Assembly: GCF_036345155.1 (NCBI RefSeq)
Contig: NZ_CP107772.1
Coordinates: 10,106,001 to 10,170,000, forward strand
DNA length: 64,000 nucleotides
Source of the DNA: Streptomyces sp. NBC_00582
Lineage (GTDB): Bacteria; Actinomycetota; Actinomycetes; Streptomycetales; Streptomycetaceae
Reading direction: 5' to 3'
Shown: positions 8,326 through 24,687 of the stretch, piece by piece
Position numbering within the stretch: the first letter of the stretch is position 1
Layout of the letters: the number at the start of each line of letters is the position of its first letter
Program-made: the position numbers and the translations under genes
The notes under the pieces: generated by a model
Told to the model about the DNA's origin: nothing
What the model saw: the letters and a program-made list of their open reading frames with translations, nothing else
Database searches by the model: none

Positions 8326-10062
8326 TCAGACGCCGAGCGATGCCGGCACGCTGTCCACGGTGACCGTGCCCTTCTCGCCGTCGACCGTGATCACCATCCC
8401 GTCCCGCAGCCGTCGCGTCCCGCCCTCGACGGAGATCACGGCCGGGATGCCCAGCTCACGGCAGACCACCACGGCGTGGCTGTTGAGCGCGCCCACATCC
8501 ACGACCGCCGCTCCCGCGACCAGGAACAGGGGGGTCCAGGCCGCGTCCGTGATCGGCGCGACCAGCACCTCGCCGGGCTCCAGCGCCTCGCACGACGCCG
8601 GGTCGGTGACCACCCGCACGGTGCCGGTGTACGTGCCATGACTGCCGCCCACACCCCCGAGCACATCACCCTCGACGGCCGCCGTTGTCCGCTCCTCGGC
8701 GCGTCGCAGCCAGGAGTCGACCTCGGTCTGCGTGTCGTCGGCGACGAAGAACGGCGGCTCCAGGTCGTGCAGGCCCGCGTACTCCTCCAGCCGCCGCGCG
8801 ATGACGGGACCGAAGGACTCCGGGGCGGCGACGTACTCGTCGAGTTCGGTGTCCAGGAGCATCATCACGTCCTCCGGCCGGGCGAACAGCCCCGCCTCGA
8901 CGCCCCGGCGGCCGAGCTCCCGTACGGCCATGCGGATCTCGTTGACGACGGTGACGCAGTTCGCCTTGGTGCGCTCGCGGGCCGGGATCCACACCTGGGA
9001 GGCGTGCAGGCCGGCGTCGAACATGGCCCGGGTCTCCTCGGGCAGCGCGGCCCGGATCTCCCGGGCCGTCCGCTCACGCCCCTCCGTCAGCCGCCTCCGT
9101 CGGGCGGCCGGGGAGTCGTCGTCGGGGCTGTGCCGGATCCGGTCGACCAGGGCCAGTGCCTGGACGGGCGCCGCCTCCCAGGACAGCGCGTGGATGTCCC
9201 ACTCGTTGGGGCCGCGGTCGCCGGACTCCGCCAGGAACTCCTCGAAGGAGTCACGGAACGCCTTCACGTCCCCGGCGGCCCCGTCGAGCGCCTGCTCCAC
9301 CGCGGCCGGACCCCGGTCGAACAGCGCGCTCAGCTCCGCCGAGGCCGCCACCTGGCGGGACAGCGTCCACAGCCCGGTCGAGGGGGAGGCGGAGTCGACG
9401 TCGCCGAGCCCGCCGATCAGGTCGAGCATGGCGCCGGGGCGGTCCACGCTCGCGCACAGCGGGCCGAGGATCGCCGGTCCGACGGAGGCGGGCAGCGACG
9501 ACTCGACGTGTCGCCGGAAGGTGGTCTCCACCTCGTCCAGCAACGACCGTGCGTGCGCGATCAGTTCCGCGTCGGACAGCTGGGCCAGGTCGGGTCGCGC
9601 GCGGCGCAGGGCGCGCAGCCGTTCCCGGTCGGCGTCGGCCTCCGGGAAGCCGGTCTGGCCGAGCATCCGCTGCAGCGTCGCGCCCGCCTTGGCGGTCAGC
9701 TCCTCGTCCCGGTCGTCCGGGTGCGCCACGTACACCGGCGTGTCGGAGCGCTGACCGACGAAGGCGGCGTCGATCTGGTCCGCCGTCTGGCCCATCCGGA
9801 TGCCGAACAGCCGCATGTGCGACAGATTGAGGTAGAAGTGGCCGCCGAACATGCCGACGAACGGCGGGCGGGGGCCGGCCACCTCCTCCTCGCGGTAGAT
9901 GCCGAACCCGACGAAGCCGTTGCGCCAGCCCTGCAGGCCCCGCCCCCAGACCAGGGTCCAGCCCAGCGGGCTGGCGGGGTCCGGCAGGGTCTCGCCCGCG
10001 TTGGCGCGGGTGTAGTGCGGCAGCCGCTCACTGCGCTGCCAGTCCGTGATCCAGCTCTTCAT
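8326..10062 (-). CDS. PEP-utilising swivel-domain protein without ATP-grasp (phosphotransferase-like)
   Basis: 578 residues. The C-terminal ~90 residues are the phosphohistidine swivel domain of PEP synthase, PPDK and rifampin phosphotransferase: VGALNSHAVVVCRELGIPAV with the phospho-accepting His near residue 529. The first ~450 residues resemble the acceptor-side region of rifampin phosphotransferases (TRANAGETLPDPASPLGWTL, FYLNLSHMR). The ATP-grasp domain those enzymes have in front is completely absent. Phenylphosphate synthase and the CreH/CreI 4-cresol kinase are known split versions with the same layout, so I infer transfer of phosphate to a small hydroxylated substrate. ATG 10062 has GGGAG upstream. 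Confidence 0.85.
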   Translation of the reverse strand: MKSWITDWQRSERLPHYTRANAGETLPDPASPLGWTLVWGRGLQGWRNGFVGFGIYREEEVAGPRPPFVGMFGGHFYLNLSHMRLFGIRMGQTADQIDAAFVGQRSDTPVYVAHPDDRDEELTAKAGATLQRMLGQTGFPEADADRERLRALRRARPDLAQLSDAELIAHARSLLDEVETTFRRHVESSLPASVGPAILGPLCASVDRPGAMLDLIGGLGDVDSASPSTGLWTLSRQVAASAELSALFDRGPAAVEQALDGAAGDVKAFRDSFEEFLAESGDRGPNEWDIHALSWEAAPVQALALVDRIRHSPDDDSPAARRRRLTEGRERTAREIRAALPEETRAMFDAGLHASQVWIPARERTKANCVTVVNEIRMAVRELGRRGVEAGLFARPEDVMMLLDTELDEYVAAPESFGPVIARRLEEYAGLHDLEPPFFVADDTQTEVDSWLRRAEERTTAAVEGDVLGGVGGSHGTYTGTVRVVTDPASCEALEPGEVLVAPITDAAWTPLFLVAGAAVVDVGALNSHAVVVCRELGIPAVISVEGGTRRLRDGMVITVDGEKGTVTVDSVPASLGV

Positions 10063-10114
10063 GACCGAGGTCTCCCGCTGTCCGTACCCGTGCCTGCCCC
10101 TGTCCGTCCCCGGC

Positions 10115-10906
10115 CTACCACTGCGCCGTTCCGCCGTCCACGCTGATCAGCGCGCCGGTGATACCCGCACCGGCCTCGCTCGCGAGCAGCGAGGCGACGG
10201 CCGCGATCTGCTCCACCGTGGTGATCTGCTTCGTGGCGGCATGCTCGGCGAACCGGCCCAGCCATTCCTCGTAACTGATGCCCTCGGCCTCCGCCGCGGC
10301 GGGACCCGCGGCCCGCATGAGGTCGGTGTCGACGGCGCCGGGGCAGATGGCGTTGCAGGTGATGCCCTGGGTGCCGTACTCGAACGCGGTCGCCTTGGTC
10401 AGGCCGTGGATGGCGTGCTTGTTGGTGATGTAGTGGCTGATCGCGGGCTTGTTGGCCTGCTTGCCCTCCACCGACGAGATGTTGATGATGCGGCCCCAGC
10501 CGCCTTCCAGCATCTTCGGCAGCGCCCGGCGGGTGCCGTAGAAGTAGTTGTTGACGTTCAGGTTGAGGGCGTCGTGCCACGCCTCGTCGCTGAGCTGGTG
10601 GATCGGGGCGAAGCCGGAGCTGCCGCCCACGTTGTTGACCCAGATGTCGAGCCTGCCGAAGCGCTCGGCGGCGAAGTCGGCGAGGCCCTCGATGTCCTGT
10701 TGGCTGCCCGCGTCACAGGGGTGGAAGACGGCCCGGTCCCCGGCGCCCATCTCCTCCAGGGCCTGCTTGCCCTTGACCTCGCTGCGGCCGCTGACGACGA
10801 CCGTGGCGCCGTCGGCGAGGAAGGCCTCGGCGATGGCGCGGCCGATGCTGCGCGTGCTGCCCGTGATCACCGCGACACGCCCGTCGAGGCTGCCCGTTGC
10901 CACCAT
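10115..10906 (-). CDS. short-chain dehydrogenase/reductase (SDR)
   Basis: 263-residue classical SDR. The nucleotide-binding motif is TGSTRSIGRAIAEAF (T-G-x3-[S/G]-x-G), followed by NNVGG in the NNAG position, then the catalytic Ser in INISSVEGK and Tyr-x3-Lys as YITNK. Asp-type NAD(H) preference cannot be read with certainty. Start ATG 10906 has GGGAG about 9 bases upstream. It lies between the second Rieske oxygenase (30 bases upstream) and the swivel protein, all leftward, so it probably oxidises or reduces an alcohol intermediate of the same pathway. Confidence 0.92.
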   Translation of the reverse strand: MVATGSLDGRVAVITGSTRSIGRAIAEAFLADGATVVVSGRSEVKGKQALEEMGAGDRAVFHPCDAGSQQDIEGLADFAAERFGRLDIWVNNVGGSSGFAPIHQLSDEAWHDALNLNVNNYFYGTRRALPKMLEGGWGRIINISSVEGKQANKPAISHYITNKHAIHGLTKATAFEYGTQGITCNAICPGAVDTDLMRAAGPAAAEAEGISYEEWLGRFAEHAATKQITTVEQIAAVASLLASEAGAGITGALISVDGGTAQW

Positions 10907-10935
10907 GGTGTTCTCCCGCGAGTGTTGTTGGTTGC

Positions 10936-12243
10936 TCACCTGGCGGCTCTGGGGGCTGCTGTGGCGCCACTGTCCAGGTGTCGGTGAATGGTGCGGTGGA
11001 AGTGCTGGAGCCCGGGCTCGTTGCGTCCGAAGACGAAGTCGGTCCCGTCGAGGGCCTTCAGACCCTGCTGGACTCCGTAGGTGGTCGCGTAGTCCTCGTC
11101 GCGGACCACCTCGTGGAACCACGCGCCGAACCGGTCGGCGGCTTGGCGCTCCTCCTCGGTGACCGCCGGTTCCCGCAGCAGGATGATCTGCTGCGTCACC
11201 GACTCGGTCGGCGTCCGGGGGAGCACCAGGGAGACGGCGATCTTCTGGCGCCAGCCGCCGGCGATCGCGAGGCCCGGGAAGAGCCAGTAGATGGGCCCGA
11301 CACAGTCCCCGGGGTCACGCCGGTCCGGCGGCAGCTCGACCGCCTGCGCGATGGGGCGCAGGGCCGGCGCGATGCGCTGGTGGGGGCCCCAGGTGTCGTG
11401 GGCCATCATGTTCGAGAGGTTCGTCTCGAACACCGTCTTCGGGTGCAGCGAGGCGAAGTGGTACGTCTCCAGATACCCGTCGAGGGTGACCTTCCAGTTG
11501 GGACTGGTCAGTTCGCCGGTGGAGTAGTGGTGGCACTCCGCCAGCCGGAGGCCCTCCAGCAGGGGCTGCAGATCGCCCAGCCACGCGTCCAGGTCGGGCT
11601 CGGCCGCCGGGTCCAGCGAGACGAAGACGATGCCCGCGCGTTCCCCGGCCGGGAGTCCGACGAGGCTGCGCCCCCCGCGCGCAACCTCGCCGAAGGTCTT
11701 CTCGGCGTACACGCCCCGCAGCTCCCCGGCCAGGTCGTAGGACCAGGAGTGGTACGGACAGGTGAGCCGTTTCGCCACCCCGCAACCGGCTTCGAGGAGC
11801 TTGGCCCCCCGGTGCCGGCACGCGTTGATCATCGCGTGCACGGTGCCCTGTCGGTCACGCGTGATCAGCACGGGGATGCCGAGCACGTCGATCGCCTTGT
11901 AGGTGTTCGGCCCCGGAAGCTCGCAGGACATGGCGAGCGGCAGCGGCACGCTCCGGTGGACGGTGTCGATCTCGCGCTGCCAGCGGTCGGCGTCGAGGTA
12001 GTTGGCCACGGGTTCCGTCCACTGGCCGTCCGCCTCGTGCGTCGTGCTGTCGCGGTAGTGCGCCATCACCCGCTCGACGAGTTCGGCCGCTTCCCGCCGC
12101 ATCGTCACGGACGCCGCGTCGGTGGACCGGTCCCGGCTGATCCACGACGCGTATTCCGGGGTGGCGGGGGCGGAGGGGGCCGCGACCGGCGCCCTGCCCT
12201 CGGCGTCCGTCTCCCGAATCTCCGGCGAACTGGTCTGGACCAC
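10936..12243 (-). CDS. second Rieske (2Fe-2S) oxygenase, large subunit
   Basis: About 435 residues. Rieske ligands are CRH...CPYH; the catalytic-domain iron motif is DGYLETYHFASLHP. Sequence around the Rieske loop differs clearly from the enzyme at 4947, so this is not a recent duplicate. Start chosen as GTG 12243 with AGGA 5 bases upstream; an in-frame ATG at 12345 would add 34 residues lacking family resemblance and would run through the operator-like site at 12330. No ferredoxin gene is adjacent, so it may share the carrier at 6350-6664. First gene of the leftward run oxygenase-SDR-swivel protein. Confidence 0.9.
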   Translation of the reverse strand: MVQTSSPEIRETDAEGRAPVAAPSAPATPEYASWISRDRSTDAASVTMRREAAELVERVMAHYRDSTTHEADGQWTEPVANYLDADRWQREIDTVHRSVPLPLAMSCELPGPNTYKAIDVLGIPVLITRDRQGTVHAMINACRHRGAKLLEAGCGVAKRLTCPYHSWSYDLAGELRGVYAEKTFGEVARGGRSLVGLPAGERAGIVFVSLDPAAEPDLDAWLGDLQPLLEGLRLAECHHYSTGELTSPNWKVTLDGYLETYHFASLHPKTVFETNLSNMMAHDTWGPHQRIAPALRPIAQAVELPPDRRDPGDCVGPIYWLFPGLAIAGGWRQKIAVSLVLPRTPTESVTQQIILLREPAVTEEERQAADRFGAWFHEVVRDEDYATTYGVQQGLKALDGTDFVFGRNEPGLQHFHRTIHRHLDSGATAAPRAAR

Positions 12244-12329
12244 GATGTCCTCACAATCCTCCCAGCCGCGAGCCGGTGACCGGCTTCGAAACGCGACGGC
12301 TGGGTCGTGTCCGAAACGACAACAGGACT

Positions 12330-12350
12330 TAGTGTGGTCTGTCAATAGAA
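12330..12350. promoter_or_regulatory. putative TetR-type operator, Rieske 2 / VOC copy
   Basis: TAGTG-N11-TAGAA, 21 bp, in the 149-bp gap between the divergent second Rieske gene and the VOC gene. Left half and spacing match the region-wide consensus TA[C/G]TG-N11-[C/A/T]AG. It could control both directions. Confidence 0.4.
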
Positions 12351-12392
12351 AGTGTCGAAGTCACCGCTCGGTGTCCCCTGGGGGTGGGTGTG

Positions 12393-12854
12393 ATGGTCAT
12401 GACGCGGCCGTTCGAGGTGGGGGTGGTGGTGCGGGACCTGGCGCTGATGGAGCGCTTCTACGGCGACGTGCTCGGCTGTCGCGCCGAGCACCGCTCGCGC
12501 GTACCGGAGTCCATCGGGGGTCCGGCCGGGCTCGGCGGCGAGCTGGTGGTCGTCTGGCTGCGGGTGCCCTCCGGGGGGTGCGTCAAGCTGATCCTTCCCC
12601 TGTCGGAGCCGGTGGCGGCGCATGCGGTGCCCTGCTCGGCCGGGCGCGCGGGCCTGTCGTATCTCACCTTCCATCTCGACGACATGGAGCCGGTGGTGGC
12701 GGCGCTGCCGGCCGCGGGTGCCCGGCCCCTGTCGAACCCCGTCGTCGTCCGGGTGCGCGGCCGGCGGATCAGCTTCTGGACGGATCCGGAGGGCAACGTC
12801 GTGGAGTTGGTGGACGCACGGGGCGGCGAGCCGGGTCCGGGGCGTAGTAATTAG
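12393..12854 (+). CDS. VOC-superfamily protein (glyoxalase/extradiol-dioxygenase fold)
   Basis: About 153 residues forming two beta-alpha-beta3 modules. Module 1 begins FEVGVVVRDLALMERFYGDVLGC, module 2 contains LTFHLDDMEPVVAALPAAG and ends with SFWTDPEGNVVELVD, the typical metal-ligand Glu strand. Functions in this fold include lyases, epimerases, dioxygenases and resistance proteins, and the sequence alone does not decide. ATG 12393 was chosen over the GTG at 12384 because of a G-rich Shine-Dalgarno upstream; ATG 12399 is also possible. It precedes the E1-alpha gene by 96 bases that hold two operator-like sites. Confidence 0.8.
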   Translation: MVMTRPFEVGVVVRDLALMERFYGDVLGCRAEHRSRVPESIGGPAGLGGELVVVWLRVPSGGCVKLILPLSEPVAAHAVPCSAGRAGLSYLTFHLDDMEPVVAALPAAGARPLSNPVVVRVRGRRISFWTDPEGNVVELVDARGGEPGPGRSN

Positions 12855-12869: not shown

Positions 12870-12886
12870 AGGTGCCCCGTGCTGGT

Positions 12887-12907: not shown

Positions 12908-12950
12908 AGTCCGATTGCTTGGCAACCTCCCTCGGACGAAGGGGCGGACG

Positions 12951-13967
12951 ATGGCTCAACGAGCGTCAACGACGTCGAAGAAATCCCCGCAGGTCAGCAC
13001 CCAGGTCAGCCCGCCGGTCGTGAAGGACCTGCACGAGCGCATGGTCCGCATACGGCTCTTCGAGACCGAGGCGGGAAGACTCATGGAGGCGGGCAAACTG
13101 CCCGGCTTCCTGCATCTGTATGTCGGCCAGGAAGCCGTGGCCGCCGGCGTCATGGCGGCCCTGCGCGACGACGACCAGATCACCTCCACCCACCGAGGCC
13201 ACGGACACGCCGTGGCCAAGGGGGTCGGCTTCCGCGAGATGTACTCCGAGCTGTACGGCCGGGTCACCGGCGCGTGCCTCGGCCGCGGCGGAAGCATGCA
13301 CATCAACGACCTCACCCGCGGCATGCTCGGCGCCAACGGCATCGTCGGCGCGGGCGTCCCGATCGCCGTCGGCGCCGCCTTCGCCGCCCGGTACAAGGGC
13401 GAGGACAGCGTCGCCGTGACCTTCTTCGGCGACGGCGCCACCAACATCGGCGCCTTCCACGAGGGCGCCAACATGGCCGCGATCCTCGGGCTGCCGGTGG
13501 TCTTCGTCTGCGAGAACAACGGCTACGCGGAGTTCACCCCGCAGTCCGGGCACATGCTGCTCACCGACGTCGCCGACCGGGCCGCCGCCTACGGCATGCC
13601 CAGTGTGATCGTCGACGGCATGGACGCGATCGCCGTCCACCGCGCCGCCACCGAAGCCGTCGAACGGGCCCGGGCCGGCGCGGGCCCGATGATGATCGAG
13701 GCCAAGACCTACCGCTACTTCGACCACCAGGGCGTCAAGGGCCTGCGGCACCCCTACCGCTCGGACGAGGAGGTCGCCGAGTGGAAGTCCCGCGACCCCG
13801 TCGACCTGATCGAGGCCCGGGCGGTCGCCGACGGCAGCGCGACCCGCGCGGAACTGGACGACGTATGGCGGCGCACGCGCGAGGAGATCGCCGAGGCCAT
13901 CGCGTACGCCGAGGCGAGCCCGCTGCCCGACCCCGCCGACCTGCTGCTCAACGTCTACTCGGGATGA
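12951..13967 (+). CDS. 2-oxoacid/acetoin-type dehydrogenase E1 component, alpha subunit
   Basis: Thiamine-diphosphate subunit of a multienzyme dehydrogenase complex that cleaves a 2-oxoacid or a diketone/acetoin to an acyl-CoA. 338 residues. The ThDP motif runs from GDGATNIGAFHEG to ENNGYAEFTP (GDG-x~27-N). HRGHGHAVAKG and the GGSMHI loop are typical of the short E1-alpha found in acetoin and pyruvate complexes. The substrate cannot be fixed from sequence. Start ATG 12951 has only a weak GGGG upstream. Operon E1-alpha, E1-beta, E2 with 4-base overlaps; no E3 (lipoamide dehydrogenase) gene in the window. Confidence 0.92.
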   Translation: MAQRASTTSKKSPQVSTQVSPPVVKDLHERMVRIRLFETEAGRLMEAGKLPGFLHLYVGQEAVAAGVMAALRDDDQITSTHRGHGHAVAKGVGFREMYSELYGRVTGACLGRGGSMHINDLTRGMLGANGIVGAGVPIAVGAAFAARYKGEDSVAVTFFGDGATNIGAFHEGANMAAILGLPVVFVCENNGYAEFTPQSGHMLLTDVADRAAAYGMPSVIVDGMDAIAVHRAATEAVERARAGAGPMMIEAKTYRYFDHQGVKGLRHPYRSDEEVAEWKSRDPVDLIEARAVADGSATRAELDDVWRRTREEIAEAIAYAEASPLPDPADLLLNVYSG

Positions 13968-14998
13968 CCGCCATGACCACCACCACTGAAGCGTCCGCCG
14001 TCACCCCGGTCGTCGCCACGCGGAAACTCACCTACGTCAAGGCCTTCAACGAGGGACTCGCCCAGGCCATGCGCGAGGACGAGAACGTCTTCGTCGCCGG
14101 CGAGGACGTGGCCGGATACGGCGGCGTGTTCCGTATGTTCGACAACCTGCTCGACGAGTTCGGCCCCCGCCGCATGATCGACACCCCGATCTCCGAAGCC
14201 GCTCTGGTCGGCCTCGGCGTGGGAGCCGCCGCCCGGGGGCTGCGCCCCGTCGTCGACCTGATGTTCATGGACTTCATCGGCGTCTGCCTCGATCAGATCG
14301 TCAACCAGGCGGCGAAGATGAAGTACATGTTCGGCGGCGCGCTGTCCGTGCCGCTCACCATCACCACCGCCTCCGGAGCGGGCCTGGGCGCCGCGGCACA
14401 GCACAGCCAGAGCCTGGAGGCCTGGCTGGCCCACGTGCCCGGCCTCAAGGTCGTCATGCCGTGCGACGCCTACACCGCCAAGGGCCTGACCGTCTCGGCC
14501 ATCCGGGACGACAACCCGGTCGTCGTCATGCTCAACAAGGTCCTGCTCGGCAGCGCCGGCGAGGTGCCCGAGGAGATCTACGGCATCCCGCTGGGCCGGG
14601 CGCACACCGCGCGACAGGGCTCCGACGTCACCGTGATAGCCCTCGGCCGCATGGTGGGGGAAGCCCTCGCGGCGGCCGACGAGCTCTCCGCCGAGGGCGT
14701 GGAGATCGAGGTGATCGACCCCCGCACCGTGCAGCCCCTGGACACCGAGACGATGTTCGCCTCCGTCCGCCGCACCAACCGGGTGCTCGTCGTGCACGAG
14801 GCCGTCACCTTCGGCGGGCTCGGAGCGGAGATCGCCGCGCAGATCCAGGACACCGTCTTCGACTACCTGGACGCGCCGGTCCTGCGCATCGGCGCCCCCT
14901 TCTCGCCGGTGCCCTTCTCCCCGGTCCTGGAGAAGGCGTACGTCCCCGATCGCGCCCGCATCGCCCAGGGCTGCCGGCGCCTCCTCGAAAGGTCGTGA
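13964..14998 (+). CDS. 2-oxoacid/acetoin-type dehydrogenase E1 component, beta subunit
   Basis: About 344 residues, forms the alpha2beta2 E1 with the preceding product. N-terminal transketolase pyrimidine-binding part: GEDVAGYGGVFRMF, DTPISEAALVG and DLMFMDFIGVCLDQIVNQAAK, all diagnostic for E1-beta. C-terminal transketolase_C part: VEVIDPRTVQPLD-like EVIDPRTVQPLDTETM and VHEAVTFGGLGAEIAA. Start ATG 13964 overlaps the E1-alpha stop (ATGA); ATG 13973 is three codons further in and equally possible. The stop overlaps the E2 start (GTGA). Confidence 0.93.
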   Translation: MTAMTTTTEASAVTPVVATRKLTYVKAFNEGLAQAMREDENVFVAGEDVAGYGGVFRMFDNLLDEFGPRRMIDTPISEAALVGLGVGAAARGLRPVVDLMFMDFIGVCLDQIVNQAAKMKYMFGGALSVPLTITTASGAGLGAAAQHSQSLEAWLAHVPGLKVVMPCDAYTAKGLTVSAIRDDNPVVVMLNKVLLGSAGEVPEEIYGIPLGRAHTARQGSDVTVIALGRMVGEALAAADELSAEGVEIEVIDPRTVQPLDTETMFASVRRTNRVLVVHEAVTFGGLGAEIAAQIQDTVFDYLDAPVLRIGAPFSPVPFSPVLEKAYVPDRARIAQGCRRLLERS

Positions 14999-16350
14999 GC
15001 GACGTGGCGGTCGAGGTTCTGCTGCCGAAGATCGGCCTGACCATGCAGGAAGGCACGATCGACGAGTGGCTGGTGCCCACCGGTGCCGCCGTCGCGGAGG
15101 GCGACGCGCTGCTGCGGCTGGCCACCGACAAGGTCGACGTGGACGTCGAGGCGGAGGCCGCGGGCCTGTTCCACCCCCTGGTCCCGGCGGGGGCCACCGT
15201 GCCGGCCGGGGCCCTCATCGGCTGGCTGCTGGCCGAGGGCGAGCAGCCGCCGACGCCGGCCGGCTCCGGGATCGGCGCGGACACGGCCGCCGCGCCCGCC
15301 CTCGACGGCGACGGTGCCGCCGCGCCCCCCACCGTCAACGGCAGCGGTGACCGGCTGCTGTCCTCACCCAACGCCCGGCGGGTCGCCGCGGCCGCCGACG
15401 TCGACCTCACCGCCGTACGCGGTACGGGGCCGGGTGGCCGGATCGTGTCCGAGGACGTGGAGGAGTACCTCGCGTCCCGCCCCGGCGGCCTCCTCACGCC
15501 ACTTCCGCCGGGCGGCACCCCCTCCTCGCCGCTGGTCCGCAAGCTGGCGAAGGAACGGGGCATCGACCTTTCCGAGGTGAGCGGCAGCGGGCCGGGCGGC
15601 CGGATCCGCAGGGCGGACCTGGAGGAAGTCGCTCCGGCAGCCGGACCCACCCACGTGCGAACCAGTGATGTCATCCCGCTCACCGGGATGCGCGGCACCA
15701 TCGCCCGCCGGATGCACGCCAGCCTCCAGGAGATGGCGCAGCTGACGCACGGCTACGAGGTGCGAATGGACGCCGTGGTGTCCCTGCGGGACCGGCTCAA
15801 GGAGGAGTGCGCCGACAGCGACCTGCCGGTTCCCAGCCTCAACGACTTCCTGCTGAAGGCCTCGGCCCTCGCCCTGCGCCGGCACCCACTGCTCAACGCG
15901 ACGGTGCGGCAGGACGGCGTCCATCTGCTCGACGGCATCCACCTCGGCTTCGCGGTGGCCGTCCCGGGCGGCCTCATGGTCCCCGTGATCGAGGACGCGG
16001 TGGCGCTGCCGCTGACCGAGATCGCCCGCCGGTCGAGGGCACTCGCCCAAGCAGCGCGCGAGGGGCGTATCTCTCCCGCGCAGTTGGAGGGGGCCACCTT
16101 CACGGTCACCTCGCTCGGCGGATACGGCGTCGACTTCTTCACCCCCGTGATCAACCCCGGCAATGTCGCGATCCTCGGGGTGGGCAGACTCAGGGACGGA
16201 GTCGAGTGGGCGGAGGACAGGCCGCTGCGGACACGCGTGCTCACCCTGAGTCTCACCTTCGACCACCGTGCCGTCGACGGGGCACCCGCCGCCGACTATC
16301 TGCGCACGGTCGGAGAGCTGCTGAGCAAGCCCCTGCGCCTGCTGCTCTGA
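14995..16350 (+). CDS. dihydrolipoamide acyltransferase (E2) with two peripheral-subunit-binding domains
   Basis: 451 residues. Lipoyl domain at ~1-80 with the lipoylated Lys in ATDKVDV (about residue 46). An Ala/Pro-rich linker, then two E3/E1-binding domains in tandem: SSPNARRVAAAADVDL...GTGPGGRIV (~121-157) and SSPLVRKLAKERGIDL...GSGPGGRIRRADL (~177-211). The catalytic CAT domain ends with FDHRAVDGAP, the H-x3-D-G active site (His about 424). Most E2s carry a single binding domain, so the duplication is unusual. Start GTG 14995 overlaps the E1-beta stop. Followed by a strong terminator 10 bases downstream. Confidence 0.95.
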   Translation: MSDVAVEVLLPKIGLTMQEGTIDEWLVPTGAAVAEGDALLRLATDKVDVDVEAEAAGLFHPLVPAGATVPAGALIGWLLAEGEQPPTPAGSGIGADTAAAPALDGDGAAAPPTVNGSGDRLLSSPNARRVAAAADVDLTAVRGTGPGGRIVSEDVEEYLASRPGGLLTPLPPGGTPSSPLVRKLAKERGIDLSEVSGSGPGGRIRRADLEEVAPAAGPTHVRTSDVIPLTGMRGTIARRMHASLQEMAQLTHGYEVRMDAVVSLRDRLKEECADSDLPVPSLNDFLLKASALALRRHPLLNATVRQDGVHLLDGIHLGFAVAVPGGLMVPVIEDAVALPLTEIARRSRALAQAAREGRISPAQLEGATFTVTSLGGYGVDFFTPVINPGNVAILGVGRLRDGVEWAEDRPLRTRVLTLSLTFDHRAVDGAPAADYLRTVGELLSKPLRLLL

Positions 16351-16417: not shown

Positions 16418-16590
16418 GGCCGTGTCTGACAATTCCCGTCGTCGCCCGGAGGGCGGCCTGGCGGCGTCAGGTGCGTGCTCTCGGCGTGCCGGGCGTAGAC
16501 CCTCGTACTGGGCGTACTCGGGTCTGCGCCCGGTGCGCCGAGAGTGCGTGCATGGCGTCGCGAGGCAGACGGGAATTGTCAGACACGGCC
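16418..16590. mobile_element. 173-bp MITE-like element with perfect 23-bp terminal inverted repeats
   Basis: The left end (16418-16440) starts GGCCGTGTCTGACAATTCCC and the right end (16568-16590) is its exact 23-bp complement. The element is flanked by TA on both sides (16416-16417 and 16591-16592), within C-TA-G, consistent with a 2-bp target duplication. The centre is itself a long imperfect palindrome (CTCTCGGCG... against ...CGCCGAGAG), so the whole element can fold into one hairpin. It contains no transposase gene. TA duplication inside YTAR is known for the IS427 group of the IS5 family; assignment to that group is inference. Its last base is part of the tetR stop codon. Confidence 0.8.
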
Positions 16591-17195: not shown

Positions 17196-17271
17196 GCTGT
17201 CAAGTATGCCGGGACCTCGATGCCTCGGAGGCCAACGCGCAGCAGGAGTTTTACGGACGGACGGTGGGAGT

Positions 17272-17292
17272 TACTGGATACAATGGTCAGTA
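17272..17292. promoter_or_regulatory. best copy of the putative TetR-type operator
   Basis: Perfect 5-bp half-sites TACTG and CAGTA separated by 11 bases, in the 140-bp gap between the two divergent TetR genes and 44 bases before the ATG at 17336. TetR proteins usually regulate themselves, so this copy is the natural anchor for the motif. The sequence TACAAT within it could be a -10 element. Confidence 0.55.
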
Positions 17293-17335
17293 CGCAGGGT
17301 CCACGGACGCGGGCTCGAGGCAGCGGGCAGGGAGC

Positions 17336-17983
17336 ATGATGGCCACCACGAAGAACGGCAAGCAGCCCGCCCACCGGCCCTCGCGGCGGCAGCACATCAT
17401 CACCGCCGCAGTGAGGGTGTTCGGCCGCAACGGCTTCGCGGAGACCAGCATCCAGGACATCGCCGACGAGGCCCAGGTGGTCCCCACGGCCGTCTACTAC
17501 CACTTCGACGGCAAGGAAGAGCTGCTCGAACTCGCCATGCGCCGGGTCTTCGACCAGTTGAACGCGGTCGTGGAGGCGGCCCGGCCGGAGTCCGAACCCG
17601 GTGACGCGGAAGGCCTGGTCCGTGTCATCGACGCCGTGTGGGACTGGGTGGAGCAGAACCCGGACGAGGCCCGGCTGTACCAGGTGCAGGTCGCCTCCGC
17701 CAACGGCAACGTCAAGGTACTGAGGGACGAGTTCGAACAGCGACACATCCAGCGTGGCTACGACTATCTGCCCGAGGGCACCACGCGCAGCCCCCGCGCG
17801 GCCAAGGCCCGGCACGCGACACAGGCCCTCGCGGTCCGCACGCTGATCAGTACGACCATGCTCGTCACCGCACTGCGGGCGGAGGGAGGACCGCTGTCCC
17901 AGCTGCCCTCCCGGTCCGTGCTGGAGGCGGTCAGGGCGCTGGCGCTGCGCATCGTCGCCGCCGAGCAGAAGCCGGCCGACTGA
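17336..17983 (+). CDS. TetR-family transcriptional regulator, likely regulon controller
   Basis: 215 residues. The helix-turn-helix is TSIQDIADEAQVVPTAVYYHFDGKEELL; the preceding basic segment is HRPSRRQHIITAAVRVFGRNGF. The C-terminal half (FDQLNAVVEAARPESEPGD to the end) is the ligand-binding dimerisation domain. Related to regulators of fatty-acid/acyl-CoA catabolism by context only. Start ATG 17336 with GGGAG upstream, chosen over upstream in-frame codons that would run through the operator. The neighbouring operator at 17272-17292 recurs in the promoters of the oxygenase, dehydrogenase and acyl-CoA genes. Confidence 0.92.
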   Translation: MMATTKNGKQPAHRPSRRQHIITAAVRVFGRNGFAETSIQDIADEAQVVPTAVYYHFDGKEELLELAMRRVFDQLNAVVEAARPESEPGDAEGLVRVIDAVWDWVEQNPDEARLYQVQVASANGNVKVLRDEFEQRHIQRGYDYLPEGTTRSPRAAKARHATQALAVRTLISTTMLVTALRAEGGPLSQLPSRSVLEAVRALALRIVAAEQKPAD

Positions 17984-18009: not shown

Positions 18010-18714
18010 TCACCAGGGCAGTGGCCTGCGATCGGCGAACAGCCCGCCCGTCGTCCCGTCGCCCACGGGAAGCGTCGCCAGCCAGACCGGCGTGTCCGCA
18101 CCCTCCTCCGGCCCGCGCGGGGCGGACGGGCCGCCCATGCCGCTGCGGGTCCAGCCGGGGTCGGCGGCGTTGACCAGGACGCCCGTGCCGGCCACCTCGG
18201 CCGCGAGCATCCGGGTGAGGGCGTTGAGCGCCGCCTTGGAGATCCGGTAGGCGGGGTGGCGGCCGGAGTCCATCAGCGTCAGTGAACCGTAGGAGCTGGT
18301 GACGTTCACCACCCGGCCGTAGCCGGCTGTCACCATGCCCGGCACGACGGCCTCGGCCACGCGCCAGGCGCCGGCGAGATTGGTGTCCAGCGTCGCGCGC
18401 AGGATGTCCTCGTCGATGTACGGAGGCCGTAGTCCCCCGTCCAGGGACACTCCGGCGTTGTTCACCAGGACGTCGATCCCGCCGACCAGGTCCCGTGCCT
18501 TGCCGACCGCTTCCGCGACGCTCTTCGCGGAGGTCACGTCCAGCGCCAGCGGCACCGCCGCCGGGCCGATGGCGCGACACGCCTCCTCGGCCGCCTCCGG
18601 TCGTCGTGCCCCGACCAGGACCCGTAGTCCCCGGTCCGCGAGCTGCTGGCCGATCTCCAGGCCGATGCCGCGTGCCCCGCCGGTCACCAGCGCCGTTCTG
18701 CCGTCCCGCCCCAT
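18010..18714 (-). CDS. short-chain dehydrogenase/reductase (SDR)
   Basis: 234 residues. TGGARGIGLEIGQQL is the nucleotide-binding motif (T-G-x3-G-x-G), NNAGV follows, catalytic Ser in VTSSYG and Tyr-x3-Lys as YRISK. The C-terminus is short after ADPGWTRSGMGG, as in carbonyl-reductase-like SDRs that work as monomers. It is the last gene of a leftward operon: small unknown protein, PPDK-like, acyl-CoA dehydrogenase, DUF35, thiolase, SDR. It ends close to the convergent TetR gene (27 bases apart), with no clear terminator between. Confidence 0.9.
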   Translation of the reverse strand: MGRDGRTALVTGGARGIGLEIGQQLADRGLRVLVGARRPEAAEEACRAIGPAAVPLALDVTSAKSVAEAVGKARDLVGGIDVLVNNAGVSLDGGLRPPYIDEDILRATLDTNLAGAWRVAEAVVPGMVTAGYGRVVNVTSSYGSLTLMDSGRHPAYRISKAALNALTRMLAAEVAGTGVLVNAADPGWTRSGMGGPSAPRGPEEGADTPVWLATLPVGDGTTGGLFADRRPLPW

Positions 18715-18731
18715 GACCTGCCCGCCGCCTC

Positions 18732-19886
18732 TCACACCGTCAGGACCGAGCACGCGCTGATCCCGGGCGCCCCGTAGACATGGGTGAAGCCCACCCGGGG
18801 GTCGCCCGGCACCTGCACACCGGGCGCCCGGCCCTGCAACTGTCGTACGACCTCGTGGAACTGCCGCAGCCCGGAGGCGCCGACGGGCTCCCCGCCGGCC
18901 AGGCAGCCGCCGTCGGTGTTGACCGGTATCCGGCCCGTGGGATCGGTGGCGCCGTCGGTCAGCAGCTCCTCCTGCTCGCCGTGGCCGCACAGTCCGGTCT
19001 CGGCCAGGTGGATCAGCTCCGAGCCGCTGTCCGTGTCCTGCAACTGGGCGACCTGTACGTCGGCGGGCCGCACCCCCGCCGCGCGGAAGACCGCCTCCGC
19101 GGCGTCCACGCTGGGGCTGCGGTGCGGTCCCGGCGGCAGCCACGGCGAGAACACCTCGAACGAACCGAACCGCCGGGTCCGGAAGGCCAACGACGCCAGC
19201 CTCACCGGACGTTCGCACAGGTCGAACGCGCGGTCGCCCAGGGCGAGGACCAAGGCCGCCGCGCCCTGACCGGGAGAACAGAACATGTACTGGGTGAGCG
19301 GGGGACTGACCTCGGCGGAGTCGAGGATCTCCTGCTCCGTCAGCGGCTTGCGCCGCCAGGCCAGGGGATGGTGCGAGCCGTTGCGGAAGGCCCGCGCGGC
19401 GACCTTTGCCAGCGCCCGCTCGGAGATGCCGTGCTCGTACAGGTACCGCTGCGTCTTCAGCGCGAAGAACTGGGTCGTGAGCATCATGCCGGTCTCGGCG
19501 TACCAGTCGCCCAGGCCGTAGCGGGCGGCGGAGACGTGGAAGGCACCGCGCTCGTGCTTGTCGAACCCCACCGCCAGCCCCAGCGAGGCCTCACCCGCGC
19601 GCAGCGCGCTGGCCACCGCGAGCACGGTCGAGGCGCCGGTCGCGCAGCCGTTCTGCACATTGACGAACGGCACTCCGGTCAGGCCCAGTCGGCCCACCAG
19701 CGTGTCGGGCTTGCCGGACACGTCGGAGCCGCCGGCCGCGTAGCCGATCTCCTCCCAGGCGACACCGGCGTCCGCCAGAGCCTCGCGTACGGCACGCGCG
19801 GCCATGTCCATGCCGCTCACGCTCTCGTCGCGGCCGAAGGGGTGCATCCCGCATCCGACCACATAGACGTCGTCGGGCCGGCTCAT
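18732..19886 (-). CDS. thiolase-superfamily protein (SCP2-thiolase type), possible aldolase
   Basis: 384 residues. The N-terminal nucleophile region reads FVNVQNGCATGAST (Cys retained). The second catalytic motif is GGCLAGGEPVGASG, where the usual G-H-P histidine is replaced by Glu, and the C-terminal Cys region is YGAPGISACSVLTV. It starts with a 4-base overlap with a DUF35 gene. Known thiolase/DUF35 pairs include SCPx-type thiolases and the retro-aldolase Ltp2-ChsH2 of steroid side-chain breakdown, so cleavage of a branched or cyclic acyl-CoA by thiolysis or retro-aldol reaction are both possible. The changed GHP motif makes ordinary thiolysis less certain. Confidence 0.85.
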   Translation of the reverse strand: MSRPDDVYVVGCGMHPFGRDESVSGMDMAARAVREALADAGVAWEEIGYAAGGSDVSGKPDTLVGRLGLTGVPFVNVQNGCATGASTVLAVASALRAGEASLGLAVGFDKHERGAFHVSAARYGLGDWYAETGMMLTTQFFALKTQRYLYEHGISERALAKVAARAFRNGSHHPLAWRRKPLTEQEILDSAEVSPPLTQYMFCSPGQGAAALVLALGDRAFDLCERPVRLASLAFRTRRFGSFEVFSPWLPPGPHRSPSVDAAEAVFRAAGVRPADVQVAQLQDTDSGSELIHLAETGLCGHGEQEELLTDGATDPTGRIPVNTDGGCLAGGEPVGASGLRQFHEVVRQLQGRAPGVQVPGDPRVGFTHVYGAPGISACSVLTV

Positions 19887-20335
19887 CGCTCCCCGTCCCG
19901 CTCCGGGCGGAAGGCGAACGTCGCCACCTCGGTCCCGTCCTCGTCCCGGTAGGCGGGCACCGAGGTGAGCCGGACCGGCAGACCGATCCGGATCTCCGCG
20001 CGGCTCACCGCGAGGCGCGCCTCGACGAGCACCTCACCGAGGTCCACATAGCCCACGTGGTACGGCCGGTGGCCGCCGGCCGGCGGCCGGTACGGCGGTT
20101 TCGGCGGGAACGCCTGGAGCGTCCACGACCACACGTGCCCGCTCACCGGCAGCACATGCGCGGACATCGCCTCGTCCGAACACCGGGGGCACGAGGCCTG
20201 CCGGGGGAAGACGACGGTGCCGCACCCGGAGCACCGGGCGCCCACGAGAGGCGGTGGATCCCCGTCGTCGAATTCCCGGGTCCCCCGGGTCTCCCCGCTT
20301 TCGAACAGCGACTCGTCTATGAGTCTGGTGGTCAC
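19883..20335 (-). CDS. OB-fold zinc-ribbon protein (DUF35), thiolase partner
   Basis: 150 residues. An N-terminal rubredoxin-like zinc ribbon CSGCGTVVFPRQASCPRC (C-x2-C-x10-C-x2-C) is followed by an OB fold (GHVWSWTLQAFPPKPPY, PYHVGYVDLGEVLVEARL). DUF35 proteins bind acyl-CoA and form obligate complexes with thiolase-like or hydratase subunits. Start GTG 20335 has GGAGGA about 10 bases upstream; the stop overlaps the thiolase ATG. It sits between acyl-CoA dehydrogenase and thiolase genes, as expected for a beta-oxidation-like module. Confidence 0.88.
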   Translation of the reverse strand: MTTRLIDESLFESGETRGTREFDDGDPPPLVGARCSGCGTVVFPRQASCPRCSDEAMSAHVLPVSGHVWSWTLQAFPPKPPYRPPAGGHRPYHVGYVDLGEVLVEARLAVSRAEIRIGLPVRLTSVPAYRDEDGTEVATFAFRPERDGER

Positions 20336-20360: not shown

Positions 20361-21479
20361 TCACCAGCCCAGCAGCCCGGCCAGCCGTTCCCGATGGTGT
20401 GCGGCTCCGCCCAGCAACACCGCGTCGGACAGGGCGCGCCGGAAGTAGAGGTGCGCGTCGTGCTCCCAGGTGAAGCCCATCCCCCCGTGGAGCTGCACGC
20501 ACTCGGCGGTGACGGAGGCGAACGCCTCGCCGCACCACGCCTGGGCCACCGCTGCCGCCTCGGCCAGCGCCTCCGGCGAGCCGTCCGCGCGGACCGCGCG
20601 CACCACGGCCGACCGTGCGGCCTCGACCTGGAGCAGCATGTCGGCACAGGCGTGCTTGACAGCCTGGAAGCCGCCGAGCGCCCTGCCGAACTGGGTACGG
20701 TCGCGCACATGGGCCACCGTCATGTCCAAGGCGGCCTGTGCCCCGCCCAGTTGCTCGGCGGCCAGCGCCACCAGGGCCACGTCCAGGGCGCGGGAGACGA
20801 CGTCCGCCCCCTCGCCGCCGGCGGTGAGCGCCCGGACCCGGGCACCGGAGAAGGAGACCACCGCCTGGCCCCGGCTGAGGTCCAGCGTGGGCACCCGGCG
20901 CACCGTGACCCCCGGTTCGCGCGGCTCGGCCAGGAAGAGGTCGACGCCGTCGGTTCCGACCGCGGCCACCACCAGCGCCTCGGCGTCGGCGCCGTCGAGG
21001 ACGTACGGCGCGGTGCCGTCGAGCAGGGGGACACTGCCCTGCCATGAGACGGCCACCGGCACGGCGTCGGCCCGCCACGTCCCGTCGAGCGCGACCACCG
21101 CCAGGGCGTGCACCGCGCCCTCGGCCAGCTTCGCCAGCGCCCTGTCGGCCGTACCACAGCCGGCCAGCACCTGCCCGGCCAGCACGGTGGAGGTCAGCAG
21201 CGGGACCGGTGCCAGGGTCCTGCCCAACTCCTCACAGACGACGGCGATCTCGGCGAGGCCGCCGATGCCGCCCGCCGACTCCGGGAGGCCGAGGGCCGCG
21301 AGGCCGACCTGCCGGCCGAGGGCGTCCCACAGCCCGGCGTCGATGCCGGGGGCGTCCTCGGACAGCCGGCGTACCGCGGCGGTGCCGCCGGCGTCCGCGC
21401 ACACCGACCGTACGGTCTCGCGCAGGTCCTCCAGCTCGGTTTCCGACAGGGTCGTGTCGGCGGTCGCGGTGGTCGTCAT
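20361..21479 (-). CDS. acyl-CoA dehydrogenase family protein
   Basis: 372-residue flavoprotein of the ACAD fold. The C-terminal helical part has RTQFGRALGGFQAVKHACADM and VQLHGGMGFTWEHDAHLYFRRA, typical of the family. The region where most ACADs have the catalytic Glu ends instead with DAVLLGGAAHHRERL, so the usual base is missing here. That is typical of the non-catalytic or alternative subunit of alpha2beta2 ACADs acting on steroid-like CoA esters. A catalytic partner could be the ACAD at 25700. Its start overlaps the PPDK-like stop (ATGA). Confidence 0.85.
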   Translation of the reverse strand: MTTTATADTTLSETELEDLRETVRSVCADAGGTAAVRRLSEDAPGIDAGLWDALGRQVGLAALGLPESAGGIGGLAEIAVVCEELGRTLAPVPLLTSTVLAGQVLAGCGTADRALAKLAEGAVHALAVVALDGTWRADAVPVAVSWQGSVPLLDGTAPYVLDGADAEALVVAAVGTDGVDLFLAEPREPGVTVRRVPTLDLSRGQAVVSFSGARVRALTAGGEGADVVSRALDVALVALAAEQLGGAQAALDMTVAHVRDRTQFGRALGGFQAVKHACADMLLQVEAARSAVVRAVRADGSPEALAEAAAVAQAWCGEAFASVTAECVQLHGGMGFTWEHDAHLYFRRALSDAVLLGGAAHHRERLAGLLGW

Positions 21480-24058
21480 CGTGCGCTCCCGGTCTCTTCG
21501 CGCGGCTGCAGGGCACTGTGCGCGGCCGCCATCCGGGCCACCGGCACGCGGTGCGCGGAACAGGAGACGTAGTCGAGACCGAGGTCGTCGCAGAACGCGA
21601 TCGACTCGGGGTCCCCGCCGTGCTCACCGCAGACGCCCAGCTTGATTCCGGGCCGTACCTCCCGTGCCCGCTCGGCCGCCAGGCGGACCAGGGAACCCAC
21701 GCCGTGCGGGTCGAGCCGGGCGAACGGGCTGGCGGTCAGGAATCCGCGCTCCTGGTAGGAGGTGAGCACCTGGCGCTCGACGTCGTCCCGGGAGAACCCG
21801 TAGGTGAGCTGGGTGAGGTCGTTGGTGCCGAAGGAGAAGAACTCGGCGTGCTCGGCGAGTTCGCCGGCCAGCAGCGCGGCCCGAGGGGTCTCGATCATCG
21901 TGCCGAGCCGGTACGGGACCTCCACGCCGGTGCGGGCGGCGACCGCGTCGGCGGCCGCCCGTACGTACGCGGCCGCGGCCGCCAGTTCCTCCGGCAGGCT
22001 GACGAGCGGGATCATCACCTCCAGCTCAGGCCGGATTCCGGTGGCCGCCACATCGGCCCAGGCGGTGAAGAGCGCCTCGGCCTGCGCCGGGTAGAGCCTC
22101 TCGTGCAGCAGCGCCAGTCGTACGCCGCGCAGCCCGAGCATGGGGTTCGCCTCGCGCAGCGCGGCGGCCCGCTGCTCCTCTGCCGCGTCCAGGGACTGTC
22201 CGGGGGCGGGCAGGAACTCGTGCAGCGGGGCGTCCAACAGGCGCACGGTCACCGGGCGGTTCCCCACGGCGGCCAGCAGTGCGCGGAAGTCCTCGTGCTG
22301 GGCGCGTTCCAGCGCCACCAGCGCCTCGTCGCGGGCGGCCGGGTCCGCGGCCAGGAGCACCCGGCGGATCAGCGGCAGCCGTCCGCCGAGGAACTGGTGT
22401 TCCGTACGGCACAGCCCCACGCCCTCCGCGCCCAGGGCGAGGGCGGTCTCCACCTCGGCGGCCGTGTCGGCGTTGACCCGCACACCCAGTCGGCGCACGC
22501 CGTCCGCCCACTCCAGCACGGTGGACAGCTCGGGTGGCGGTCCGGCCACACTGACGCTCAGCGTCCCCGCGTAGACGGCGCCGGTACGGCCGTCCAGCGA
22601 GACGGGGTCGCCCTCCCGCACGACCCGCTCGCCGAAGTGCACGGTCCCGGCGGCCGGGTCCACGCGCAGCCCCTCGGCGCCGCACACCGCGGGCTTGCCG
22701 GCGCCCCGCGCCACCACGGCGGCATGCGAGGCGATGCCGCCGCTGCCGGTCAGCACGGCGGCGGACGCCAGCATCCCGGGGACGTCCGCCGGGGTCGTCT
22801 CGGTAGCCACGAGCACCACCCGAGTACCGTCCGCGGCCAGTTCGAGGGCACGTTCACTGGACAGCACGACCGCTCCGGTCGCCGCGCCCGGCGAGGCGGG
22901 CAGCCCCTTCACCAGGAGTTCCTCCCCGCCGGTGAGCCGAAGCTGCGGGTGCAGCAGTTCCTGCACCTGCGCGGGCGTGATCCGCTGGACGGCCTCCGCA
23001 CGGCCGAGCGCCCCGTCCCGGGCCAGGTCCGCCGCCAGACACACCGAGGCGCGAAGCGGTGGGCGGAGTTGCGCCGTGGCGGAGAGCAGGGAGATCTCGT
23101 CGTCGCGCACCTCGAAGTCGACCGACACCGGCGCGCGCAGATGGCGTTCCAGGGTGAGCAGGGAGTGTTCGAGAAGGGCGGTGCCGCCCGCGAGCCGGTC
23201 CAGCGGTTCGCCGGTGTGCGGCGGCGGGGCGCTGCGGCGCACACCCCGGAAGAAGGAGCCCTGGGGGGAGAGACGCCCGGTCTCGGGATCCCGGCTGACC
23301 GCCGTGCCGTAGCCCGAGTGGTCCGCCGGGCCGATGCGCAAGGCCTGCACATGCAGGGCGACGGCCAGGTCGGCGGGGAGCCGCTGGGCCCGGCGGGCCC
23401 TTCTCGCACGAGGCGAGTCCCAGCGGCCGAGGAGGGCGCGGGCGGCCAGCGCGAGCTGCTGAGCCGGGTCGTCGGGGAAGGGCCGGGAGCCGTGCTCCGC
23501 CACCAGGGACAGCAGCACCTCCACCCGGTCCCGCGGTCCGGGCGTGTCCAGAAGGGCGTCGTCGAGCACCGCGGCGGGCACGTCGAGGGCGTACTCGGCG
23601 ATCATGCGCACGGTGGTGGCCCACACGTCGTACAGCGCGTCCGCACGGCCGATGACGGCGCACAGGTCGTCGAGACGGCCGCGGGCGACGCCGAGACAGG
23701 CCAGGTCGGGCGGCAGTCCGGCGATCTCGGTCGGCGCGCTCGCCGACAGGCGCAGCAGCAGGGGCCGGGCCGCGTCCCCGATGTGCCGCCCCGAGAGCTG
23801 TTCGACCAGGTCCACGGCGGCTTCTGCGGTGCCGGGTTCGCGCAGCGACGCGGCGGCGCCCGTCGGCACGGTGAGCCCGGGCACGACCGGCAGCCCGAGG
23901 GCCACCAGCCGGTCCATCGCCGCGCCGTGCGCGCCGAGCTCGTCGGCGTCGAGGCCCCGGATCCGTCCCTGCCCGTAGGGCACCAGGATGCGGCCGGGGC
24001 TCGCGGAGGCCGTCCCGGCCGGTGCGAGCGGGCCCGTCTCGCGGTCGGTGACGCTCAA
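21476..24058 (-). CDS. pyruvate-phosphate-dikinase-like protein with degenerate ATP-grasp domain
   Basis: 860 residues, the full length of PPDK. The swivel His is intact (GGIASHAAVVARG, about residue 445) and so is the PEP/pyruvate TIM barrel: VRVNADT, VRLLDAPLHEF, GTMIETPRA, SFGTNDLTQ, CGEHGGDP and the catalytic Cys in YVSCSAHRVP (about 833). By contrast the ATP-grasp residues known from Clostridium PPDK are lost: GGKG is GAHG, the V-R-S-G-A-R arginines read LSASAP, and the Q-T-R of the adenine/phosphate site reads SAT. So it should take phosphate from PEP but not from ATP. Start TTG 24058 overlaps the preceding stop (TTGA), with GGAG upstream. Confidence 0.88.
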   Translation of the reverse strand: MSVTDRETGPLAPAGTASASPGRILVPYGQGRIRGLDADELGAHGAAMDRLVALGLPVVPGLTVPTGAAASLREPGTAEAAVDLVEQLSGRHIGDAARPLLLRLSASAPTEIAGLPPDLACLGVARGRLDDLCAVIGRADALYDVWATTVRMIAEYALDVPAAVLDDALLDTPGPRDRVEVLLSLVAEHGSRPFPDDPAQQLALAARALLGRWDSPRARRARRAQRLPADLAVALHVQALRIGPADHSGYGTAVSRDPETGRLSPQGSFFRGVRRSAPPPHTGEPLDRLAGGTALLEHSLLTLERHLRAPVSVDFEVRDDEISLLSATAQLRPPLRASVCLAADLARDGALGRAEAVQRITPAQVQELLHPQLRLTGGEELLVKGLPASPGAATGAVVLSSERALELAADGTRVVLVATETTPADVPGMLASAAVLTGSGGIASHAAVVARGAGKPAVCGAEGLRVDPAAGTVHFGERVVREGDPVSLDGRTGAVYAGTLSVSVAGPPPELSTVLEWADGVRRLGVRVNADTAAEVETALALGAEGVGLCRTEHQFLGGRLPLIRRVLLAADPAARDEALVALERAQHEDFRALLAAVGNRPVTVRLLDAPLHEFLPAPGQSLDAAEEQRAAALREANPMLGLRGVRLALLHERLYPAQAEALFTAWADVAATGIRPELEVMIPLVSLPEELAAAAAYVRAAADAVAARTGVEVPYRLGTMIETPRAALLAGELAEHAEFFSFGTNDLTQLTYGFSRDDVERQVLTSYQERGFLTASPFARLDPHGVGSLVRLAAERAREVRPGIKLGVCGEHGGDPESIAFCDDLGLDYVSCSAHRVPVARMAAAHSALQPREETGSAR

Positions 24059-24687
24059 CCCCGGCTCCTCGTGACCAGCTCCTCTTCCCGGGCCTCGTCC
24101 TCGGCCCGGCTGATTCCGAGCACGAGCAGCAGCTCCTGGTGCAGCCGCATCCACACGGTGTGGTACGAGTCGCACAGCGGCGAGGCCAGCCACGCCGGCG
24201 CGCCGTCGTCGAAGCGGTCGAGCGCGTCCTCCAGCGCCGTCAGGTACCGCCCGCTGCCCGCGAGCACTTGGTCCAGCCGGCGCAGCACGGGCTGGATGGC
24301 CTCGTGCACGTCCTCCAGCGACTCGCGCACCGCGGCGTCGTAGACATCGTCCGAGTGGTCGTTGGCGGTGCCGTCGGGGCGGCACTGCCATGCCGTGCAC
24401 ACATCCCGGATCTTCCGGTTGACCGGCAGGAACGCCTCGTAGGCCGCGATGATCCGCTCCTCCTGCTCGGAGCCGGCGGGAACCCGAAGAATCCGCGCGG
24501 CGGCCGCCTTGGCCCGCTCGGTCGGCAGCACCACCGGCCCCTTCACCATCGCCAGTCCGGCGTCGACCAGTGGACGGTGCTCGGACTCCGGCCGACCGCG
24601 CCACATCCCACGCAGAACGAGGTCGACGACGGCTTCGCTGAGGGGCTCGTCGGGTGCGTCCGGAAGGTTTACGGCAGCAGATTGCAT
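24055..24687 (-). CDS. unknown helical protein coupled to the PPDK-like gene
   Basis: 210 residues (212 if GTG 24693 is used). Mostly alpha-helical, charged, no membrane segment. It has two notable blocks: GPVVLPTERAKAAAARILRV, which could be a winged-helix-like start, and NRKIRDVCTAWQCRPDG, with two cysteines five residues apart. The C-terminal half (ESLEDVHEAIQPVLRRLDQVL...LDRFDDGAPAWL) is predicted coiled helices. I do not recognise the family. Its stop overlaps the PPDK-like start (TTGA), so the two are translated together. A regulatory or acceptor-carrier role in phosphotransfer is plausible but unproven. Confidence 0.75.
   Translation of the reverse strand: MQSAAVNLPDAPDEPLSEAVVDLVLRGMWRGRPESEHRPLVDAGLAMVKGPVVLPTERAKAAAARILRVPAGSEQEERIIAAYEAFLPVNRKIRDVCTAWQCRPDGTANDHSDDVYDAAVRESLEDVHEAIQPVLRRLDQVLAGSGRYLTALEDALDRFDDGAPAWLASPLCDSYHTVWMRLHQELLLVLGISRAEDEAREEELVTRSRG

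Follow-up and report, generated by a model that had tools for sequence, protein, structure and literature searches.

A candidate phosphoenolpyruvate-dependent phosphotransfer system in a catabolic gene cluster of Streptomyces sp. NBC_00582

A stretch of 64,000 nucleotides from Streptomyces sp. NBC_00582 (contig NZ_CP107772.1, positions 10,106,001 to 10,170,000; hereafter the window) contains three minus-strand genes that an initial annotation, made from the letters of the DNA, had placed correctly. SWIV (8326–10062) is a 578-aa protein that combines an HpeH/rifampin phosphotransferase (RPH)-type substrate domain with a swivel domain carrying His529, without an ATP-grasp. PPDKL (21476–24058) is a homologue of pyruvate, phosphate dikinase (PPDK) with a degenerate ATP-grasp (approximately residues 27–360), a swivel histidine (His445) and an intact phosphoenolpyruvate (PEP) domain (residues 513–848). 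U210 (24055–24687) is a 210-aa protein with a winged-helix-like N terminus and a four-helix bundle. The proposed coupling of U210 to PPDKL holds: by their coordinates the U210 stop and the PPDKL start overlap by 4 bases, and U210 is followed by PPDKL in 47/47 loci (two of them, L068 and L070, cut and two, L037 and L038, broken). Together, the three proteins quite probably form a dedicated PEP:small-molecule phosphotransfer system within a catabolic cluster.

PPDKL has lost the ATP site of PPDKs and kept their PEP site. The Pfam scan of the window protein matched PF00391 and PF02896 and gave no match to PF01326 (PPDK_N), and maize PPDK (1vbg) aligned with it end to end over residues 27–847 (540 bits). 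It scores 689.6 bits against the pyruvate, phosphate dikinase model TIGR01828, under the curated cut-off of 843.45, and 111 bits against the PTS (phosphotransferase system) enzyme I model TIGR01417 (cut-off, 341.7), whose profile it matches only from position 148 of 565. We aligned 45 PPDKL sequences (those of the window and L006, plus 43 from the set of 47 loci) with 20 ordinary actinobacterial PPDKs, omitting L037 and L038 (short frames), L068 (cut) and L069 (unread letters). Residue numbers and roles at the two sites follow what we take to be those of the Clostridium symbiosum enzyme. K22, R92, D321, Q335 and R337 are kept in 0/45 PPDKL proteins versus 19–20 of the 20 ordinary PPDKs. Their replacements are His or Arg (K22), Ser, Ala or Val (R92), Ser, Thr, Arg or Tyr (D321), Ala, Ser or Gly (Q335) and Ser, Ala, Glu, Thr or Gly (R337); E323 is Asp in 43 sequences, Glu in one and Gly in one. 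The loss is not an artefact of a shifted alignment, an outcome that would have refuted the earlier reading: the residues are gone across the whole clade and kept in ordinary PPDKs. The PEP-site residues R561, R617, E745, N768 and C831, on the other hand, are present in 45/45 PPDKL proteins and 20/20 ordinary PPDKs, and the swivel histidine is also invariant (45/45), as the initial annotation had read from the window protein. Two further changes mark the group: position 621 of the PEP domain is Ala in all 45 versus Pro in all 20 ordinary PPDKs, and the Thr two residues before the swivel histidine is replaced by Ala in 44 sequences and by Ser in one. In a tree, seven PPDKL proteins formed one group (support 100/100). 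The first 360 residues of the window protein still share 35–63% identity with those of L066, L067 and L070, so the domain is being kept rather than decaying. In the draft Streptomyces records L037 and L038, several breaks interrupt PPDKL as well as other frames, probably reflecting assembly quality.

The sole Pfam match of SWIV is the PF00391 mobile domain (residues 495–565), with His529 in place, in agreement with its earlier description as a swivel-histidine protein without an ATP-grasp. The SWIV model aligns to RPH residues 314–867; RPH carries its own ATP-grasp before residue 314, whereas SWIV has none. The histidine of the loop is present in 36/36 SWIV rows, two of which have only 28% identity. 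T/SxxGGxxxH is the loop motif of two-component small-molecule dikinases (PMC12167813), and its second Gly is found in 2/36 SWIV rows versus 4/4 HpeI-paired HpeH-like proteins. The latter fall outside the SWIV group (branch support 100/100) in a tree with several long branches and an unsure inner order. Within the window and the 20-kb neighbourhoods inspected, no PPDK_N-like match adjoins SWIV, apart from a half-PPDK at L164. Three genomes (G306, G227 and G115) each encode at least four SWIV proteins and one PPDKL, whereas at E up to 1e-60 the Streptomyces genomes carry a single SWIV apiece, except for G647 with two. Precomputed annotations place PF27448.1 on 120/120 SWIV relatives listed (P0127–P0246), a domain not shown by the scan of the window protein. 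In the distant relatives L112, L117 and L119, the neighbours of the system are ribose-type ABC transporter genes, ThuA, a molybdopterin oxidoreductase or a xylose-isomerase-like protein, possibly a sign that the substrate in those relatives is polyhydroxylated.

The genes do co-occur in other genomes, a point on which the earlier reading could have failed. In a class sample of 394 genomes, 78 had U210-family matches, 13 of them in tier 1 (E below 1e-57). Full-length SWIV (E below 1e-100) was found in 18 genomes, namely all 13 with tier-1 U210 and five with tier-2 U210. Among 343 Streptomyces genomes, 20 had U210 (E up to 1e-40) and 21 had SWIV (E up to 1e-60), with 20 common to both and a U210–SWIV spacing of 13.3–15.8 kb (21 pairs, one genome having two copies). 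G542 has SWIV without a window-type U210: its SWIV relatives are only 39–40% identical, and it carries a tier-2 U210 beside a half-PPDK as well as an HpeI-like pair. The 11.5-Mb genome G647 has two inverted, equal-scoring U210 and SWIV copies near both ends (C1:647790 and 10892403), which probably lie in terminal inverted repeats.

Gene order differs among the lineages. In Streptomyces and Lentzea, U210 and PPDKL are mostly followed by an acyl-CoA dehydrogenase (ACAD1), a ChsH2-like protein, a thiolase and a TetR pair, on to the E1/E2 genes of a 2-oxoacid dehydrogenase; the short-chain dehydrogenase SDR2 is absent in some. Two Frankia loci have SDR1 (a second short-chain dehydrogenase), a Rieske oxygenase, U210, PPDKL and ACAD1. 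In L066 and L068, both from uncultured Actinomycetes, SWIV, a Rieske oxygenase, a second SWIV, U210 and PPDKL lie within approximately 13 kb on one strand. The genes recurring in distant families, not all of them in each genome, are SWIV, SDR1, the Rieske oxygenase, a zinc alcohol dehydrogenase, E1 alpha/beta, E2, U210 and PPDKL.

The U210 family is strongly conserved and has partners other than PPDKL. Residues F88, N92, Y150, G164, H178, W181, H185, L188 and R196 (212-aa numbering) are found in 103/103 distinct sequences and H113 in 102/103; the L111 protein has lost the W102/N111/H113 part of an otherwise near-invariant set. We fetched 20 tier-2 loci for neighbour analysis and found in 15 of them, adjoining U210, a half-PPDK with no PEP-domain match. 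These half-PPDKs, which also occur in mycobacteria, have K22, R92, E323, Q335, R337 and the swivel histidine in 15/15 and D321 in only 6/15; a 16th row (L164) is a 21-residue scrap counted as a gap. Three other relatives (L105, L109 and L110) lie beside frames of approximately 400 aa that consist solely of an intact PEP-synthase/RPH-type ATP-grasp and a swivel domain and make up another type of stand-alone phosphocarrier, and L092 and L111 have no charger nearby. Across its partners (PPDKL, half-PPDK and PEP-synthase/RPH-type), U210 thus mostly pairs with a swivel phosphocarrier, whatever charges it. We found no assigned function for this partner family.

Candidate ATP chargers elsewhere were sought as PF01326 matches in 17 PPDKL genomes (13 + 4), and none of the matches fell in the PPDKL proteins. 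G316 (listed as 100% complete, 40 contigs) had no PF01326 match whatever. Five genomes (G207, G322, G222, G009 and G657) had one frame each of ordinary PPDK size (G657 by size only), and the remaining 11 had more matches, some in RPH-sized frames. The search did recover stand-alone HpeI-like ATP-grasps in G000, G306, G227 and G542, whose frames were resolved in three of the four loci (368 aa in L170, 384 aa in L173 and 356 aa in L175); each adjoins its own HpeH-like protein. L170 lies in the genome of the window (C1:973000–980000) and has the HpeH-like frame followed by the 368-aa ATP-grasp frame.

The genes between and around SWIV and U210 point to a catabolic cluster. Next to SWIV, as in relatives, is SDR1 (10115–10900, minus; start approximate; PF13561/PF00106), followed by the alpha subunit of a Rieske-type ring-hydroxylating oxygenase (10936–12345, minus; start approximate; PF00848, PF00355). 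The plus strand then encodes a VOC/glyoxalase-fold protein (12384–12854; PF13669, PF00903) and 2-oxoacid dehydrogenase E1 alpha (12915–13967; PF00676; TIGR03182 under its cut-off), E1 beta (13964–14998; PF02779, PF02780; NF006667 above its cut-off) and E2 (14995–16350; PF00198, PF02817, PF00364). The frames orfA, orfB and orfC were rejected as antisense of the real E1 beta and E2 genes. Two TetR-family regulators (16590–17195, minus, and 17186–17983, plus; both PF00440) precede a minus-strand run of SDR2 (18010–18730; start approximate; PF00106), an SCP2-type thiolase (18732–19886; PF22691, PF00108), the ChsH2-like zinc-ribbon/OB-fold protein (19883–20332; start approximate; PF01796, PF12172) and the IpdE2-like ACAD1 (20361–21479; PF00441; NF050027 under its cut-off), which leads to PPDKL. 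Upstream of U210 and in the same direction is a crotonase-family (enoyl-CoA hydratase-like) gene (24782–25570, minus; NF046063 and NF005700 under cut-off), identified from its translation and codon-position substitutions; the latter led us to reject the overlapping plus-strand frame 24449–25633. A second acyl-CoA dehydrogenase, ACAD2 (25670–26911, plus; PF00441, PF02770, PF02771), follows. On the SWIV side is a zinc-type NADP oxidoreductase (6892–7932, plus; PF16884, PF00107) with 61–64% identical relatives near SWIV in L119, L158 and L168. Together, the genes for the Rieske oxygenase, the thiolase, the ChsH2-like protein, acyl-CoA dehydrogenase and crotonase suggest a ring or side chain ending as acyl-CoA; the E1/E2 genes suggest an intermediate that is a 2-oxoacid or an acyloin. 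Beside the cluster (27059–32413) are genes for an ArsR-type regulator, a NicO nickel transporter and two periplasmic binding proteins.

Because the PEP site is intact and the ATP site lost, we infer that PEP would charge PPDKL, placing phosphate on His445 and releasing pyruvate. From PPDKL the phosphate would move on, either with the help of U210 or by way of it, to His529 of SWIV as the last carrier, and the RPH-like substrate domain of SWIV would transfer it onto a hydroxyl of the pathway substrate. With its near-invariant H178, H185 and H113, U210 is the obvious candidate for a carrier or docking subunit. Furthermore, PPDKL and the half-PPDKs, unlike HpeI, keep their own swivel, which suggests that the phosphohistidine of the charger is an intermediate from which phosphate moves onward to another protein. 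A single PPDKL may supply several SWIV proteins, much as enzyme I of the PTS is shared by several sugar-specific enzymes; the multiple SWIV proteins per PPDKL in G306, G227 and G115 are as expected for a shared charger. More tentatively, the phosphate could run from PEP to PPDKL-His445, a U210 histidine, SWIV-His529 and a catabolic hydroxyl, making a PEP-driven chain beside the sugar and nitrogen PTS. U210 would then act as a carrier in the manner of HPr but lack its fold, working with interchangeable chargers (PEP-fed PPDKL, ATP-fed half-PPDK and ATP-fed half-PEP-synthase) and substrate kinases.

The nearest known systems are the PTS, VadK and HpeHI. In the PTS (enzyme I, HPr, EII) and DhaKLM, phosphate moves from PEP to a histidine, then to further proteins and finally to the substrate, and in the PTS one charger serves several acceptors. 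The proposed system would have the same order and the same sharing of a charger. It differs from the PTS in that PPDKL is PPDK-derived and no transporter part was recognised among PPDKL, U210 and SWIV, all of which look soluble. The reported phosphorylation of rifampicin in vitro by PTS enzyme I alone (PMC13099321) provides a chemical precedent. Mycobacterial VadK (Rv1127c) autophosphorylates with ATP and has an operonic partner, Rv1126c, that improves its solubility and is washed off by 2 M NaCl (PMC13400623). Like PPDKL with U210, VadK is a PPDK-derived swivel-histidine protein encoded beside a partner gene; however, it keeps the ATP site, has no PEP domain and is charged by ATP, so that PPDKL is its mirror image on both counts. 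The half-PPDKs beside tier-2 U210 relatives are of the VadK type, and gene order and mycobacterial relatives suggest that Rv1126c belongs to the U210 family. In its anatomy, SWIV resembles HpeH of the two-component HpeHI/CreHI/PpsAB dikinases (PMC12167813), joining a substrate domain to a swivel without an ATP-grasp within a catabolic cluster. SWIV differs in lacking an adjoining HpeI ATP-grasp, in having a PEP-site protein as its constant companion and in its altered GG loop. Thus, the proposed system would work like the PTS and HpeHI but is a member of neither by the criteria compared. Our literature searches returned no description of the PPDKL/U210/SWIV set. The earlier statement that no such system had been described has to be qualified, since VadK/Rv1126c (2026) and HpeHI (2025) are closely related to its parts, although neither amounts to the set itself.

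Several observations weigh against a PEP-fed relay. Shared ancestry, above all within Streptomyces, runs through the co-occurrence counts, whose independent weight derives from four families (f1, f6, f20 and f36) with differing gene orders. Two Frankia genomes carry window-type SWIV and PPDKL on separate contigs. Furthermore, 5/18 class genomes and G542 have SWIV relatives but no PPDKL, so these relatives could take phosphate from sources other than PEP, and the HpeI-like and ordinary PPDK proteins of the genome of the window could in principle charge SWIV. Since PPDKL retains its own swivel domain, SWIV would have to be charged from histidine to histidine or itself visit the PEP domain; neither is known to us for swivel domains. 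Finally, U210 has a winged-helix-like end, and some of its tier-2 relatives carry MarR-like names.

These last two features favour a different reading, possible though rather unlikely, in which PPDKL and U210 form a PEP-sensing, autophosphorylating regulatory phosphotransferase that controls cluster enzymes or transcription, much as VadK has been proposed to do with ATP, and SWIV is a separate kinase. VadK is indeed described as a regulator that interacts with methylcitrate-cycle enzymes (PMC13400623), and 60 of the 78 class genomes with U210-family matches have no full-length SWIV. However, full-length SWIV was never found without a U210-family match (18/18 class genomes, plus G542), the cluster already has two TetR regulators, and SWIV would be left without a known charger in G316. 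It is less probable still that U210 itself holds a small molecule phosphorylated by PPDKL while SWIV modifies a different compound, using phosphate from another source. The invariant polar residues of U210 and the ATP-grasp-plus-swivel partners in which no acceptor domain was seen (18/20 tier-2 loci) are consistent with this, but the link to SWIV and the missing other charger in G316 go unexplained. Charging of SWIV by ATP through an ATP-grasp from another part of the genome (ordinary PPDK, RPH-like or HpeI-like), with PPDKL as a relic or moonlighting protein, accords with the PF01326 matches in 16/17 PPDKL genomes, ordinary PPDK included, but is highly improbable given their absence from G316, the full constraint on the PEP site and the separation of SWIV from HpeI-paired proteins. 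The PEP-charged phosphotransfer proposed by the initial annotation is partly supported, with added support from G316 and from the ATP-charged, mirror-image partners of U210 relatives.

If the PEP-fed relay is true, PEP-driven phosphorylation of catabolic substrates would have a second evolutionary origin, in parts of the PPDK and RPH types. It would cost one phosphate bond per substrate; dikinases that convert ATP to AMP spend two. It would also give the U210 partner family a role and predict an acceptor for VadK-type kinases.
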